Under the pieces are notes generated by a model. The model saw only the letters and a list, made by a program, of their open reading frames with translations, made no database searches and was not told the DNA's origin. A stretch of DNA of 64,000 nucleotides from Paludisphaera rhizosphaerae (GTDB lineage: Bacteria; Planctomycetota; Planctomycetia; Isosphaerales; Isosphaeraceae), in NCBI RefSeq assembly GCF_011065895.1, contig NZ_JAALCR010000005.1, positions 124,001-188,000 of the forward strand. The letters run 5' to 3'. This document shows positions 15,951 through 23,365 of the stretch, piece by piece (the first letter of the stretch is position 1; every line of letters begins with the position of its first letter). Both the position numbers and the translations under genes were made by a program.

Positions 15951-16024
15951 CGGTGATCCTCGACGTTGAGAACCTTCACCAGGGACGTCCACTGCTCGGC
16001 GGTCTCCTTGATCTTCGCCTCACC
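15947..16024 (-). pseudogene. Relic of a prolyl oligopeptidase gene, C-terminal end only
   Basis: Read on the minus strand this stretch encodes AKIKETAEQWTSLVKVLNVE, which matches the last residues of the intact oligopeptidase next door (AKVIEEAADQWAFLVKVLNV). An in-frame TAG lies just upstream of the match. Its own stop overlaps the ATG of paralogue 2. It is what remains of a second copy of the oligopeptidase gene after duplication of the gene pair. Confidence 0.75.
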
Positions 16025-17881: not shown

Positions 17882-20025
17882 CGAGAAGCCTCGACATTGA
17901 GGACCTTCACCAGGAACGCCCACTGGTCGGCGGCTTCCTCGATGACCTTGGCGGTCGGCTTGCCGGCGCCGTGGCCGGCCTTGGTTTCGATCCGGATGAG
18001 GACCGGGTTGTCGCACGCCTGCGCGGCCTGGAGGGTCGCGGCGAACTTGAAGCTGTGCGCGGGGACGACGCGGTCGTCGTGGTCGGCCGTCGTCACCATC
18101 GTGGGGGGGAAGCAGGTGCCGGGCTTCACGTTGTGGAGCGGGCTGTAGGCGTGAAGCGCTTTGAACTCTTCGGGGTTGTCGGACGAGCCGTAGTCGTCGA
18201 TCCAGGCCCAGCCGATGGTGAACTTGTGGAACCGCAGCATGTCCTGCACGCCCACGCCCGGCAGGCAGGCGCCATAGAGGTCGGGCCGCTGGGTCATGCA
18301 GGCGCCGACGAGCAGGCCGCCGTTCGACCGGCCGGAGATCGCCAGCTTGGACTTGGTCGTGTACTTCTCGGCGATCAGCCATTCGGCCGCGGCGATGAAG
18401 TCGTCGAAGACGTTCTGCTTGCGCTGGCGGGTGCCCCCCTGGTGCCAGCTCTCGCCGTACTCGCCGCCGCCGCGAAGGTTGGCCACGGCGTAGAGGCCCC
18501 CCATCTCCATCCAGGTCAGGGTCGAGGGGGAGAAGCCCGGCGTCAGCGGAATGTTGAAGCCGCCGTAACCGTAGAGCAGCGTCGGGTTCTTGCCGTCCTT
18601 CGGGAAGCCCTTCCGGCCGGTGATGAACATCGGGATCTTGGTCCCGTCCTTGCTCGTGTAGAAGACCTGGACGGTCTCATACTTCGACGGGTCGAACTTC
18701 AAGGCCGGCTTGCGCCAGACGGTGCTGGCGCCGGTCGACACGTCGTAACGGTAGATCGTGGCCGGGCTGTTGTACGAGGTGAACGAGTAGAACGTCTCCT
18801 TGTCCTTGCGCTTGCCGCCGAAGCCCGAGGCCGTCCCCAGGCCGGGAAGTTCCACGTCACGGACGTGCTTGCCGGCCAGGTCGAAGACCCGGACGACAGT
18901 GTGGGCGTCCTTCAGGTAGTTGACCAGGAAGTGGTCGCCGACGACGTCGACGTTGTCCAGGGTCTCGGCCGCCTCGGGGATCACCTCGACCCACTTCTCG
19001 GGCTTCGGGTCGCGCGTGTCGATCGCCACGACCTTGCCGCGCTCGGCGTTCTTGTTGGTCTTGAACCAGAAGATCGGGCCGTCGTTGTCGATGAACGAGT
19101 ATTCGGCCTCGAACTCGCCGACGAGGTGGACGGGCGCGGCCTTGGGAGCGTCGAGTGGGCGGTACAGGACGCGGTACTTGTCGTCGGTCCCCTTGTGCAG
19201 GGTGAAGATCAGGTACTTGCCGTCGTCGGTGACGGTCGGCGTGGCCTCCCATTCCTTGTGCTCGGGGTCCTGCCAGACCAGCTCGTCCTGCTCCTGGGGC
19301 GTGCCCAGGATGTGATAGTAGACCTTCTGGAAGTAGTTCGCCCCCTTGAGGTCCTGCCCCGGCTCGGGCGTGGGGAATCGGCCGTAGAAGAAACCCTTGC
19401 CGTCGGGCGTCCACTCGGCGGAGGAGAACTTGACCCACTGGATCTCGTCGGCCAGATCCTGACCGGTGGCGACGTCGCGGACCTTCCAGACGTTCCAGTC
19501 CGAGCCCGCCTCGGCGACGCCGTAGGCCAGCCGGGCGCCGTCGTCGCTGGGGACCGTGCCGGCCAGGGCGACCGTGCCGTCGGCCGATAGTTTGTTCGGA
19601 TCCAGCACCATCCGGGGCGCGGCGTCGAACGTGTCGAGGACGAACAGGACCGACTGGTTCTGCAGGCCCGTGTTGTGGGTGAAGAAGTACTTGCCGGCCT
19701 TCTTGCCGGGGGGGCTGAACTTCTCGTAATCCCAAAGCTCGGTGACGCGGGACCGGATGGCGTCGCGCTGGGGGATGGAGTTCAGGAAGGCGTTGGTGAC
19801 CTTGTTCTCGGCCTCGACCCACGCGCGGGTGGCGTCGGAGTCTGGGTCTTCCAGGGGCCGGTATGGATCGGGGACCTTCGTCCCGTGGTAGTCGTCGACC
19901 GTCTCCGACCTTGGCGCGTCGGGATACTTGAAAGGCTTGGCGGGCTCATCGGCTCTCATCGGGCTTCCTGCGGCTCCCAGGGCCAGGGCGATCGCGGCGA
20001 GGCGCGAATGTCGTTTCATGATCAT
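17878..20025 (-). CDS. Prolyl oligopeptidase, S9A family, exported
   Basis: A 715-residue serine peptidase that cuts short peptides after proline. ATG 20025 is preceded by an AAAGGA ribosome site; a start at 20046 is possible. The N-terminus has a signal peptide (RLAAIALALGAAGSPMRAD). The seven-bladed propeller runs to about residue 440 and the alpha/beta hydrolase domain follows. The catalytic triad is visible: Ser567 in ISGRSNGGLL, Asp650 in HDDRVVP and His685 in KAGHGAG, close to the positions in pig prolyl oligopeptidase. It starts the chain with the three paralogous membrane proteins. Confidence 0.92.
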   Translation of the reverse strand: MIMKRHSRLAAIALALGAAGSPMRADEPAKPFKYPDAPRSETVDDYHGTKVPDPYRPLEDPDSDATRAWVEAENKVTNAFLNSIPQRDAIRSRVTELWDYEKFSPPGKKAGKYFFTHNTGLQNQSVLFVLDTFDAAPRMVLDPNKLSADGTVALAGTVPSDDGARLAYGVAEAGSDWNVWKVRDVATGQDLADEIQWVKFSSAEWTPDGKGFFYGRFPTPEPGQDLKGANYFQKVYYHILGTPQEQDELVWQDPEHKEWEATPTVTDDGKYLIFTLHKGTDDKYRVLYRPLDAPKAAPVHLVGEFEAEYSFIDNDGPIFWFKTNKNAERGKVVAIDTRDPKPEKWVEVIPEAAETLDNVDVVGDHFLVNYLKDAHTVVRVFDLAGKHVRDVELPGLGTASGFGGKRKDKETFYSFTSYNSPATIYRYDVSTGASTVWRKPALKFDPSKYETVQVFYTSKDGTKIPMFITGRKGFPKDGKNPTLLYGYGGFNIPLTPGFSPSTLTWMEMGGLYAVANLRGGGEYGESWHQGGTRQRKQNVFDDFIAAAEWLIAEKYTTKSKLAISGRSNGGLLVGACMTQRPDLYGACLPGVGVQDMLRFHKFTIGWAWIDDYGSSDNPEEFKALHAYSPLHNVKPGTCFPPTMVTTADHDDRVVPAHSFKFAATLQAAQACDNPVLIRIETKAGHGAGKPTAKVIEEAADQWAFLVKVLNVEASR

Positions 20026-20812: not shown

Positions 20813-21682
20813 ATGTCGGACGAGGCGCGCGGAAGGGCCTGGCGATGGGATCGCGGCGACGACGGAGTCTGGACCCTCTGGTTCGACCAGCCGGGAAGGC
20901 CTCTCAATATCCTCGACCGCGCGGCGCTCGACGGCCTGGACGACTGCCTGGAAGAGGTCGAGGAAGACCCGTCCGTCCAGGGCGTTCTGATCCGCAGCGC
21001 CAAGCCGTCGGGCTTCTGCGCGGGGGCCGATCTGCATATCTTCGCCGAGTCGAAAGACGGAGACGAGATCGAAGCCTTCCTCCGACGCGGCCTGGACGTT
21101 CTCGACCGTCTGATGCGGCTGGGACCGGCGACGACCGCCGTGCTCCACGGGGTCTGCCTGGGAGCGGGGTTGGAATTGGCCCTGGCCTGTCGCCACCGCG
21201 TCGCACTGGCCTCGAGCGTGCCGCTTCAGGTGGGGACGCCGGAGGTCCGCCTGGGGCTGATCCCGGGGTGGGGGTCGATCGAACACCTGCCGAGGCTGCT
21301 AGCGCCGAGGGACGCGCTTGAGATGCTCCTGTTCGGCAACCCGATCGGGTTCCTCCAGGCGAAGTCGCAGGGGGTGGTGAGCCGACTCCTTTCGGCCGAG
21401 GAGCCGGAGCGATTGGTCGAGACCCTGTCGTCCGACGCCCCCGCCGAACGGCCGTTCCTGGCCGACGACTGGATCGACGAGCTGGCCTTCGCACGGGCCA
21501 AGCTCGAACGCCACTCCATCGACTTCCCCGAAACCCAGGCCGCGATCCTTCAGATCCTCGAAACCGACCTGGCCGAAGGACCCGAGGCCGCCCGCGAGGA
21601 AACCATCGCGAAGCTCGTCGACCTGGCCCTGGGCGACGCCTCCCGCGACGCCATCGCCGATTTCTTCGACCGCTCTCGGTGA
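20813..21682 (+). CDS. Enoyl-CoA hydratase/isomerase-family protein
   Basis: A 289-residue crotonase-fold protein. It has the family features FCAGADLHIF (oxyanion-hole region), GVCLGAGLELALACRHRVA (second oxyanion-hole Gly and helix) and PEVRLGLIPGWGSIEHLPRL. In place of one of the two usual catalytic glutamates it keeps E in TPEVRLGLIPG; the other is not obvious, so it may be an isomerase or a dienoyl-CoA or non-hydratase member. The last 66 codons are duplicated beyond the toxin-antitoxin pair downstream. The start ATG at 20813 follows a GGGGAGG sequence. Confidence 0.82.
   Translation: MSDEARGRAWRWDRGDDGVWTLWFDQPGRPLNILDRAALDGLDDCLEEVEEDPSVQGVLIRSAKPSGFCAGADLHIFAESKDGDEIEAFLRRGLDVLDRLMRLGPATTAVLHGVCLGAGLELALACRHRVALASSVPLQVGTPEVRLGLIPGWGSIEHLPRLLAPRDALEMLLFGNPIGFLQAKSQGVVSRLLSAEEPERLVETLSSDAPAERPFLADDWIDELAFARAKLERHSIDFPETQAAILQILETDLAEGPEAAREETIAKLVDLALGDASRDAIADFFDRSR
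21476..21672 (+). repeat. Direct repeat, copy 1 (end of the hydratase gene)
   Basis: A 197-bp stretch that recurs at 22635-22831 with about four differences, including GAGGAA/GAAGAA and CTGGCC/TTGGCC. It begins with GACGAG and ends with TTCTTCGACCG. The two copies are 1159 bases apart and bracket the toxin-antitoxin genes. Confidence 0.92.
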
Positions 21683-21797
21683 TGAGCCTCCGCGAGCCGG
21701 GTGACCCGCGCGGGAACGCCCGTTCCCACACGGATCTCTGTCGCTTGCCTTTGTCGGCCTGTTTCCGTCAGGGTCCGCTCCATACCACGGACGAAGT

Positions 21798-22217
21798 TCA
21801 GGTCCGCCAATCGTGAAGTATCAGCGGATGACCGATTTGCTGAATGCGCTGGTAGTGGGCTGTATTTCCCGTGACCAACTCCAAGCCATTCACGAGAGCG
21901 ATGGCGGCGATCATCGGGTCTGCCCTCCCGATGGGACGACCTACCCTCTCAAGCTCTCCCTCAATGCGCCCCGCCAGCGCCGCAGCCGCGTGATCAAAGA
22001 CGAGAACCTCTTGAGATGAGATACCCGCGAAGAACGCTTGAAGCTGCTTCAACGCCTGCTTCTTGGTGAGCCCACGAACGATTTCCAGAACTGTAACGAC
22101 GGATACCGTGTACCGTCCAAAAGCGGCAAGATACGCGGCTCCATTCCGTACGACGGTTGGATCGACGGCCTTACCGAGTTCCGAGAAAGTGTCTGTGTCG
22201 AGCAGGGCCTTATTCAC
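21798..22217 (-). CDS. PIN-domain toxin, VapC type
   Basis: A 139-residue PIN-domain ribonuclease from GTG 22217. The acidic residues of the active site are in place: Asp7/Asp9 in LLDTDTFSELG, Glu45 in TVLEIVRG and Asp100 in IGRADPMIAAIAL, with Asn118-Thr119 in GNTAHYQRI. VapC toxins cleave tRNA or rRNA when the antitoxin is lost. It overlaps the antitoxin gene upstream by eight bases. The pair lies between two copies of the hydratase gene end, which suggests that it was inserted there. Confidence 0.88.
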   Translation of the reverse strand: MNKALLDTDTFSELGKAVDPTVVRNGAAYLAAFGRYTVSVVTVLEIVRGLTKKQALKQLQAFFAGISSQEVLVFDHAAAALAGRIEGELERVGRPIGRADPMIAAIALVNGLELVTGNTAHYQRIQQIGHPLILHDWRT

Positions 22218-22479
22218 CGGCCGGAAGCCTCCAGGGGCGTTCCTCTCGAATTTTCATAGCCTCTTCGACCACTTCGTCGAGGAGATCCGGAGCGTCACGA
22301 AACATACCCATGATGGGGTTTTCAAGGGGCGAGGGCACATCCTCGTCAGCATGACTGCCGCTGGTGGGTTGAGGAATGGCTGCGTCATCGAGCACGGTCA
22401 CGCGAACGCGACGCCCGGCCAGTTCTTGAGAACGGCGGGCGACCTCTTCCCATGTTCCTTCGATGGTGATCTGTTCCAT
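22210..22479 (-). CDS. Antitoxin of the VapC-like toxin
   Basis: An 89-residue acidic protein from ATG 22479. The N-terminal half (ITIEGTWEEVARRSQELAGRRVRV) is a short beta-helix module like the one planctomycete and cyanobacterial antitoxins carry, and the C-terminal half (LLDEVVEEAMKIREER) is the likely toxin-binding helix. It precedes the toxin gene and overlaps it by eight bases, the usual order. I do not see a clear ribbon-helix-helix or AbrB motif. Confidence 0.75.
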   Translation of the reverse strand: MEQITIEGTWEEVARRSQELAGRRVRVTVLDDAAIPQPTSGSHADEDVPSPLENPIMGMFRDAPDLLDEVVEEAMKIREERPWRLPAGE

Positions 22480-22634
22480 ACCCCGACCTCCTCGGCTGAA
22501 GTCGCAGCGCAGGATCGCATCATGAACGGCATGGCCGCGTCATCTTGCATTTGTATTTTATAGGCCCAGAACAGGGCCGACAGCGCCTGGCTCTGGCTCG
22601 CGGCCTGGATTATACCCAGGCTGGCGGGGTGCGA

Positions 22635-22844
22635 GACGAGTTGGCCTTCGCACGGGCCAAGCTCGAACGCCACTCCATCGACTTCCCCGAAACCCAGGCC
22701 GCGATCCTTCAGATCCTCGAAACCGACCTGGCCGAAGGACCCGAGGCCGCCCGCGAAGAAACCATCGCGAAGCTCGTCGATCTGGCTCTGGGCGACGCCT
22801 CCCGCGACGCCATCGCCGATTTCTTCGACCGACCCGGGCGTTGA
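22635..22844 (+). pseudogene. Duplicated 3' end of the enoyl-CoA hydratase gene
   Basis: Copy 2 of the 197-bp direct repeat (22635-22831). It keeps the reading frame and encodes DELAFARAKLERHSIDFPET onward to a stop at 22844, with the last residues changed (DRPGR instead of DRSR). The frame is open upstream to 22545, but those 30 codons match nothing in the hydratase. No start or ribosome site supports expression, so I call it a gene fragment. Confidence 0.82.
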
Positions 22845-22885
22845 ACCGTCGAGGATCGGCTCAACGCCCGTTCTTGGTCGTCGAT

Positions 22886-23365
22886 TCAAGAACCCTTCTT
22901 GGCGGCTCCGGCAGCCATCTCGCCGGTGCCGGCCATCTTGGCGGCCTTGAATTCGTCGGCCGTCATGCGGACGATCTTCCGGTTGTGCATGAGCACCGGG
23001 CCGCCAGACGCGGGGACGTCCTTGCCGTAGGCGAGAACTTCGTCGGCCGGGTCGGTCGTCGCCGGACCTTCCATGGTGTCTTGAATCACCACGCCCGATC
23101 GCGCGATCACGTCGCCGGCGCGGAGGGCCATCAAACCGACCGGGGCGACCGCGTCGAGGTAAGCGAAATCGGAGACGGCGGTCGGCGGCTTCTTCTTGTC
23201 GAAGGTGTATTGGCGGAACAACTCGCCGATGTCGATGAGTTGGCGTTCGGCCCGAGACTCCTCCTCAGTGGTTGCGACGCTCGGGGGCGCGCTGACGCCG
23301 CCGCAGCCGGTGATCGCCGCCGTGCCGAGAGAGAGTCCAAGAGCCGCCACGAATGAAAAGCGCAT
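22886..23365 (-). CDS. Lipoprotein of unknown function
   Basis: A 159-residue protein from ATG 23365. The signal peptide ends in a lipobox (AAITGCGG), so Cys21 is likely lipidated. The mature part contains a helical stretch (RQLIDIGELFRQYTFDKKKPP) and a small beta domain (VLMHNRKIVRMTADEF). It follows a DUF1559 gene on the same strand by 155 bases, the arrangement also seen at the other two DUF1559 genes of the window. Family unknown; a partner role for the DUF1559 protein is an inference from synteny. Confidence 0.78.
   Translation of the reverse strand: MRFSFVAALGLSLGTAAITGCGGVSAPPSVATTEEESRAERQLIDIGELFRQYTFDKKKPPTAVSDFAYLDAVAPVGLMALRAGDVIARSGVVIQDTMEGPATTDPADEVLAYGKDVPASGGPVLMHNRKIVRMTADEFKAAKMAGTGEMAAGAAKKGS

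Follow-up and report, generated by a model that had tools for sequence, protein, structure and literature searches.

Chromosomal type II toxin-antitoxin (TA) systems of the VapBC type, among them those with a toxin near the tRNA(fMet)-type VapC, consist of two small overlapping genes with a PIN-domain toxin, show a patchy distribution and occupy varied sites. Phage 21 and e14 integrate in icd and supply an alternative 3' end for this gene, such that a gene with a new end is followed by the element and then by the old gene end. Integron gene cassettes form another system for comparison, in which a TA module may form a small unit by itself or stand in a row of such units between repeats. For Vibrio T6SS effector-immunity modules, the excerpts used of one study (PMC5361080) describe a one-sided homology anchor, a second junction without homology and an old gene part that is shifted downstream; one-sided recombination is proposed there for toxin/immunity modules. 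How TA systems move and integrate is called "unelucidated" in an excerpt of a 2020 review (PMC7167474).

The locus described here lies in a window of 64,000 nucleotides (the whole stretch of DNA that was analysed) from an assembly of 8.05 Mb in 110 contigs (G000). It shares the gene arrangement, the PIN toxin, the patchy distribution and the variety of sites with chromosomal VapBC, but differs in being bracketed by a long duplication of the end of a host gene. The order of gene, insert and old gene end is that of the icd phages; however, no integrase is recognised, the insert measures about 1 kb and the target gene differs between the cases read. As in the Vibrio modules, the structure fits one junction in homology and another without, with the old gene part shifted downstream. 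Whereas in Vibrio the old effector is displaced and the immunity gene orphaned, the present locus has a TA module as its cargo and a second copy of the gene end. The likeness to integron cassettes concerns two other loci (L251 and L090) and is drawn without attC or integron-integrase analysis; in the window, unlike in cassettes, the repeat is the end of a host gene. Among the matches listed from open-licence PMC articles, no paper deals with long gene-end duplications around TA modules, by which we do not claim absence from print. We regard the window locus as the insertion of a familiar type of module; the parts are known, and the footprint of the insertion is newly recognised. Its features are as follows.

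20813..21682, plus strand: enoyl-CoA hydratase/isomerase family gene, intact open reading frame (ORF) of 289 aa (Pfam ECH_1, E 3.7e-25)
21476..21672, plus strand: left repeat copy, the 3' end of the hydratase gene (direct-repeat comparison)
21673..22634, no strand: inserted segment of 962 bp, absent here in 5/5 other genomes of the same genus
21798..22217, minus strand: vapC toxin gene, 139 aa, GTG start, PIN domain (Pfam)
22210..22479, minus strand: vapB antitoxin candidate, 89 aa, directly upstream of vapC with an 8-bp overlap
22635..22831, plus strand: right repeat copy, an orphan 3' fragment of the hydratase gene (direct-repeat comparison)
22832..22844, plus strand: ancestral-type end of the hydratase frame with its stop codon (TGA, 22842-22844), aligning with the gene ends of relatives
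22836..22869, plus strand: possible stem-loop GGGCGTTGA...TCAACGCCC, following the right copy but not the left, read from the sequence directly

Comparison of the window with itself yields a 197-bp direct repeat (21476-21672 and 22635-22831, offset 1159) in which 193/197 positions are identical. This bears out the earlier note, according to which the hydratase 3' end is present twice around a VapBC-like pair. The copies differ at 21482, 21598, 21622 and 21628 (left-copy numbering); all four changes are synonymous and, judged by eye against relatives, the right copy looks derived at three of these sites. Similarity ends 10 nt ahead of the right copy's stop codon, and the hydratase codons past 21672 are encoded by the insert. 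The intact gene thereby ends in ...DRSR*, and the right fragment in the ancestral-type ...DRPGR* (compare ...ERPER* in G032). The first gene, which the note had called intact, is nearly so: the 289-aa frame is whole, with its last codons taken from the insert. For the same reason the idea that the repeat restores the gene's end is not entirely accurate, as the repeat alone does not supply these codons. When the source genome is searched with 21400-22900, only one 31-bp match is returned besides the locus itself, which rules out a dispersed repeat for the window. Elsewhere in the window, 15958-16012 and 17889-17943 form an 85% direct repeat, near the end of a prolyl oligopeptidase gene and about 1.9 kb off, possibly reflecting adjacent paralogues.

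Both vapBC genes lie on the minus strand, facing the hydratase. VapC matches the Pfam PIN family (PF01850) with an E-value of 1.5e-7 and 32.5 bits (cut-off 23.6), and the NCBIfam models of tRNA(fMet)-specific VapC with an E-value of 3e-16, scoring 59.6 bits against a cut-off of 143 (NF010285) and 59.3 against 140 (NF047863). By sequence similarity it is thus related to tRNA(fMet)-specific VapC, but it falls below the curated cut-offs and is not a called member. Residues D6, E44 and D99, which we take to be the acidic active-site residues of the PIN domain with a catalytic role, are invariant in an alignment of 12 sequences. At E 0.001 neither Pfam nor NCBIfam gives a match for the vapB candidate; its residues G57, D67, A73, R77 and R83 are invariant with six ORFs upstream of homologous vapC genes. 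On a plasmid of P. borealis (G028:C2:110312-110723) a vapC homologue is split into two reading frames.

Ordinary transposition leaves duplications far shorter than 197 bp, a contrast to which the earlier note had rightly pointed. No transposase or integrase ORF is recognised in 21673-22634 (the ORFs searched against Pfam in the insert region were the two of vapBC and 22545-22844). The outermost 30 bases of the insert match the inverted other end at 6/30 positions, and none of the 25 longest inverted pairs lies at the insert ends. A transposon target duplication was therefore rejected for the window, given the 197-bp length, the lack of a recognised transposase and of a terminal inverted repeat in the outermost 30 bases, and so was an integrase-type element, the insert having no recognised integrase. 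Among the nine PIN loci of this genome a long bracket of high identity is seen at the window locus only.

The search for a one-copy empty site in relatives had been set beforehand as a refutation test. All five other genomes of the genus (G028-G032) carry the hydratase without a second gene end: each gives one match at E <=1e-30, a single orthologue of 66-77% amino acid identity, with a single gene end at this place. A homologous vapC stands beside it in 0/5, which is the sense in which these sites are called empty. G029-G031 are without a vapC homologue at E 1e-10, and the homologues of G028 and G032 are on other contigs. The gene upstream of the hydratase is common to all five; of the genes that now follow the right copy, G032 has homologues after its hydratase, and for the DUF1559 gene among them the same holds in G029. 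Since the sites are empty, the neighbours are shared and the ancestral-type end is on the right copy, the sequences indicate that vapBC and one gene end were added between the hydratase and its old terminus. The part of the earlier note that described the TA pair as an insertion is thus upheld.

The footprint recurs, also around ParDE modules and in other phyla, which goes beyond the earlier note. Homologous vapC genes (E <=1e-10) are present in 21/45 genomes of the family Isosphaeraceae. We used 42 vapC loci, mostly with flanks of up to 10 kb either way, together with 664 control positions on the same contigs; four weak matches were left out (G037:C1:2431642, G016:C892, G010:C42 and G002:C212). 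A direct repeat brackets 10/42 vapC loci within 2.5 kb, against 20/664 control positions. With identity of at least 70% over at least 40 bp the counts are 10/42 against 14/664, with at least 80 or 85% over 45 bp they are 7/42 against 3/664, and with at least 85% over 60 bp 6/42 vapC loci remain against 0/664 controls.

Duplicated gene 3' ends are found at L083 (DUF1501-like), L104 (FAD-dependent-oxidoreductase-like), L112 (MacB/FtsX-like permease; the Aquisphaera insulae JC669 locus, also numbered L261) and L120 (amidohydrolase-like), where flanking genes are named from their translations rather than from family searches unless Pfam is cited. The repeats differ from site to site and often are gene 3' ends that stop at the stop codon. 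Not all are of this kind: L103, which duplicates the region upstream of a gene, L265 and L322 lie at or upstream of 5' ends, and others are intergenic. The distance between insert end and vapC ranges by ORF coordinates from 3 nt (L265) to 125 nt (window), and because of this variation no fixed element termini are claimed. In L119 and L120 the vapC gene is split into two frames with the repeats still present; the split in L120, on a contig with a coverage of 3.7, may be a sequencing error. Empty sites were also sought for three of these loci. The gene duplicated at L083 (G032) is carried without homologous TA beside it by 5/5 other genomes of the genus, for L104 two relatives match only as far as the gene end, and G001 and G003 yielded no orthologous empty site for L112, which counts against the explanation preferred below.

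Inserts of this type near the vapC loci hold other TA families as well: Pfam recognises Phd/YefM with PIN (L099), Panacea (L090), a HEPN toxin (L087) and a YhcG/DUF1016 nuclease (L111), and L088 carries a ParDE-like pair (by translation, with a ParE match at the same place). For a comparison between families, a bracket was defined as a repeat of at least 45 bp and at least 80% identity. The first set was limited to loci of more than 3150 bases, being 23/30 VapC loci (drawn from the window and L053-L081), 26/30 ParE loci and 27/30 acetyltransferase loci. Here 5/23 VapC, 4/26 ParE (L189, L199, L211 and L214) and 0/27 acetyltransferase loci are bracketed. A fresh set, to which the criteria already in use were applied, gives 9/40 for ParE and 0/20 for acetyltransferase. 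Over both sets the counts are 13/66 and 0/47, respectively, and pooled TA loci reach 18/89 against the 0/47 of acetyltransferase (P 2.5e-4). Eight of the nine fresh bracketed ParE cases were read individually, L347 being counted only; the repeats of L317, L341 and L342 are GC-rich or complex and may be of a different kind, and in L322 an ABC-transporter-like gene has its 5' end duplicated. The inserts of 16 tabulated cases measure 640-1988 bp, all but one being 1127 bp or less, and those of the fresh ParE cases 768-2136 bp. A narrow insert size range was dropped as a feature, since the fresh ParE pairs reach 2.1 kb.

An unbiased sample of 40 stretches of 20 kb (800 kb, in which few TA modules are expected) contains 13 repeat pairs of at least 80% identity around inserts of 0.3-4 kb. 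The three pairs of at least 85% concern an internally repeated protein, a low-complexity gene and a perfect 45-bp direct repeat around 2 kb (L175:5613-7750, G031). The latter insert has a 388-aa ORF and no recognised TA pair, and counts against the explanation preferred below. A tRNA attachment site had been considered for L175 and was withdrawn, as ARAGORN finds no tRNA there.

To look outside the family, named GTDB genomes were scanned with the VapC alignment, giving 61 loci of which 33 were counted outside the Isosphaeraceae set. Of these, 5/33 are bracketed (at least 80%, 45 bp), a count that has no matched control set. They are L251 (Thioploca), L252 (Methylomirabilota, with the repeat cut by the contig end), L265 (Thiotrichaceae, 269 bp, 96.7%), L271 (Polyangiaceae, 92 bp, 95.7%, adjoining an isocitrate-dehydrogenase-like gene as named from its translation) and the weak case L274 (Hydrogenedentes, 45 bp, 84%). 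L257 (Thiomargarita) is bracketed too, but is too repeat-rich to judge and stands outside the 5/33.

The ends of the repeats and the differences between their copies bear on how the duplications arose. In L083, L104, L112 and L189 the stop codon and the repeat end coincide or lie no more than 2 bp apart; the stop codon of one copy differs from that of the other in L104 and L112. At other loci the end lies 10 nt before the stop (window), about 7 nt before (L211), 10 nt after (L199) or 24 nt after (L120). Ends near the stop codon are expected from homology between two alleles with different downstream DNA.

In six coding cases 18/22 differences are synonymous where 8.3 are expected under neutrality (P 7e-6); the P-value is 0.008 against a model of local duplication in which one copy then decays neutrally. 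Three replicate cases, taken from the nine fresh ParE cases (L326 from 2615, L345, and L322 cut at 2560), show 16/28 synonymous differences (P 4e-4 for neutrality, P 0.11 for local duplication). Pooling the six and the three cases yields 34/50, where the expected fraction is 0.32 under neutral drift and about 0.49 under local duplication (P about 0.005 against the latter). The excess comes mostly from L112 and L322, and the first set minus L112 gives P 0.12 under the local-duplication model. Non-synonymous differences in L345 (7/14, where both copies are in similar reading frames and the choice of the intact gene is an assumption) and L326 (1/1) count against our preferred explanation. For these counts the blocks of L104, L189 and L252 were edge-trimmed and L083, L120, L211 and L214 were omitted because of gaps or mixed coding content. 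Clustering of differences toward one repeat end (L083, L104, L214 and L322) was not used, since alignment edges can cause it. Given this preponderance of synonymous changes in coding repeats, the copies probably acquired much of their divergence before they were brought together, at a time when each was still functional.

The Ku domain (PF02735) is matched in 0/45 family genomes, G000 included; among 14 control genomes the same search matches B. subtilis. Ku-dependent end joining was rejected on this absence.

Beyond the repeat, the insertion, the empty sites, the recurrence at unrelated TA modules and the lack of a Ku match in the family genomes, which are direct observations, we infer a donor, a recombination route and a stabilisation by addiction. 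The explanation we prefer, with moderate confidence, is a homology-anchored, additive insertion of a TA module that has no recognised integrase in the insert and is kept because addiction blocks collapse of the repeat. Foreign DNA would have carried vapBC joined to its own, slightly diverged version of the hydratase 3' end, and would have entered the chromosome by homologous pairing over this gene end. The other end may have been joined illegitimately (homology-facilitated illegitimate recombination), or the donor may have been a small circle integrated by one crossover. The product would be a gene with the donor's end, the TA module, the recipient's old gene end and the old neighbours; neither an integrase nor a transposase would be needed. 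The one-sided recombination proposed for the Vibrio modules offers a precedent. A strain with the presumed donor form (gene and TA without the fragment) was not found, which counts against this explanation. Long direct repeats normally collapse by recombination. Here, however, a cell that lost the insert would be left without the short-lived antitoxin and be poisoned, and the duplication would persist. Addictive inserts that resist collapse in this way would enrich TA modules among repeat-bracketed inserts whatever their entry route; L119 and L120 with their split vapC do not obviously fit such stabilisation. In an excerpt of work on pneumococcus, natural transformation is described as generating tandem duplications (PMC3784515).

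The main alternative is local: nicks about 200 bp apart on opposite strands would be filled in while a TA fragment is captured, so that both repeat copies derive from one template. The earlier note had likewise read the repeat as a duplication of one target sequence. This topology agrees with the cases examined, the repeats range widely in length (45-787 bp), and at L214 the copied stretch runs across two genes, covering the end of one and the beginning of a truA-like gene without disrupting either, which looks like a plain target duplication and speaks against our preferred explanation. We nonetheless consider local duplication somewhat unlikely, in view of the excess of synonymous differences, which also makes the reading of the earlier note less favoured, the four cases with repeats ending at stop codons and the lack of a Ku match in 45/45 family genomes. 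Taken together, the stop-codon ends, the synonymous excess and the lack of a Ku match favour, without proving, recombination with a diverged donor of gene end and TA over capture at a staggered break. That the insert is the remnant of a site-specific integrative element, with an alternative gene end as attachment site and reduced to the TA pair, would account for the same order of gene, element and old gene end and would suit the isocitrate-dehydrogenase-like neighbour of L271; with no integrase ORF recognised in the 962-bp insert, small inserts (up to 1988 bp in the tabulated cases and 2136 bp in the fresh ParE cases) and targets that differ between the sites read, it appears improbable.

Two further possibilities question the pattern itself. 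TA modules might sit in repeat-rich variable regions, in which case the brackets would be an unconnected coincidence. Some of the G020 cases are indeed GC-rich repeats that recur within and between contigs, and controls are non-empty at loose thresholds, but none of the 664 same-contig controls passes the strict threshold and none of the 47 acetyltransferase loci is bracketed, which makes coincidence decidedly improbable. Assembly artefacts deserve a thought where many genomes are drafts or metagenome bins and the contamination estimate of G000 is 2.39%. Against this, the copies in the window differ at four sites and have different flanks, and similar footprints occur in the few-contig genomes G031 (L189) and G037 (L199, a special case) and in the named strain Aquisphaera insulae JC669 (L112); an artefact is accordingly very hard to believe.

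Much wider than the homology-anchored insertion we prefer is the idea that type II TA modules are themselves minimal mobile cassettes and need neither integrase nor transposase to spread. They would use a homology arm from the end of a target gene and host recombination, leave the gene unbroken, loop out as a circle via the repeat, re-insert in another strain and be held by addiction, and long direct repeats of host gene ends would generally mark where solitary TA modules were acquired, across bacterial phyla. This we regard as speculative and rather unlikely. More modestly, the footprint may hint at how selfish TA pairs enter chromosomes. A recurrent footprint around unrelated TA families that can be read from sequence would make the question of their entry and movement testable: it predicts donors, empty sites and a dependence of stability on toxin activity. 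TA modules that adjoin housekeeping genes without harming them would likewise find an explanation.

Some loci show more complex arrangements. L199 was dropped as a simple gene-end case, as its copies belong to a broken transposase-like gene with rearranged parts; the ParDE pair lies inside this gene (L199:961-2703, G037) and the repeat is 177 bp at 99.4%. In G020, GC-rich palindromic repeats separate the TA modules of L088, L087 and L090. Copies of the L088 repeat recur at steps of about 1-1.3 kb and longer along one contig, like a cassette array, and for several G020 loci a dispersed repeat origin is likely. L251 has three repeat copies with a TA-like pair in each gap, so that two pairs stand in series between copies of one 90-118-bp segment (L251:1860-3540), which suggests repeated insertion at one target. 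At L326 (2298-3962), finally, the 3' end of a PIN-type toxin gene is duplicated (135 bp, 97%) and a ParE-type pair follows this gene, so that one TA module is inserted at the end of another.
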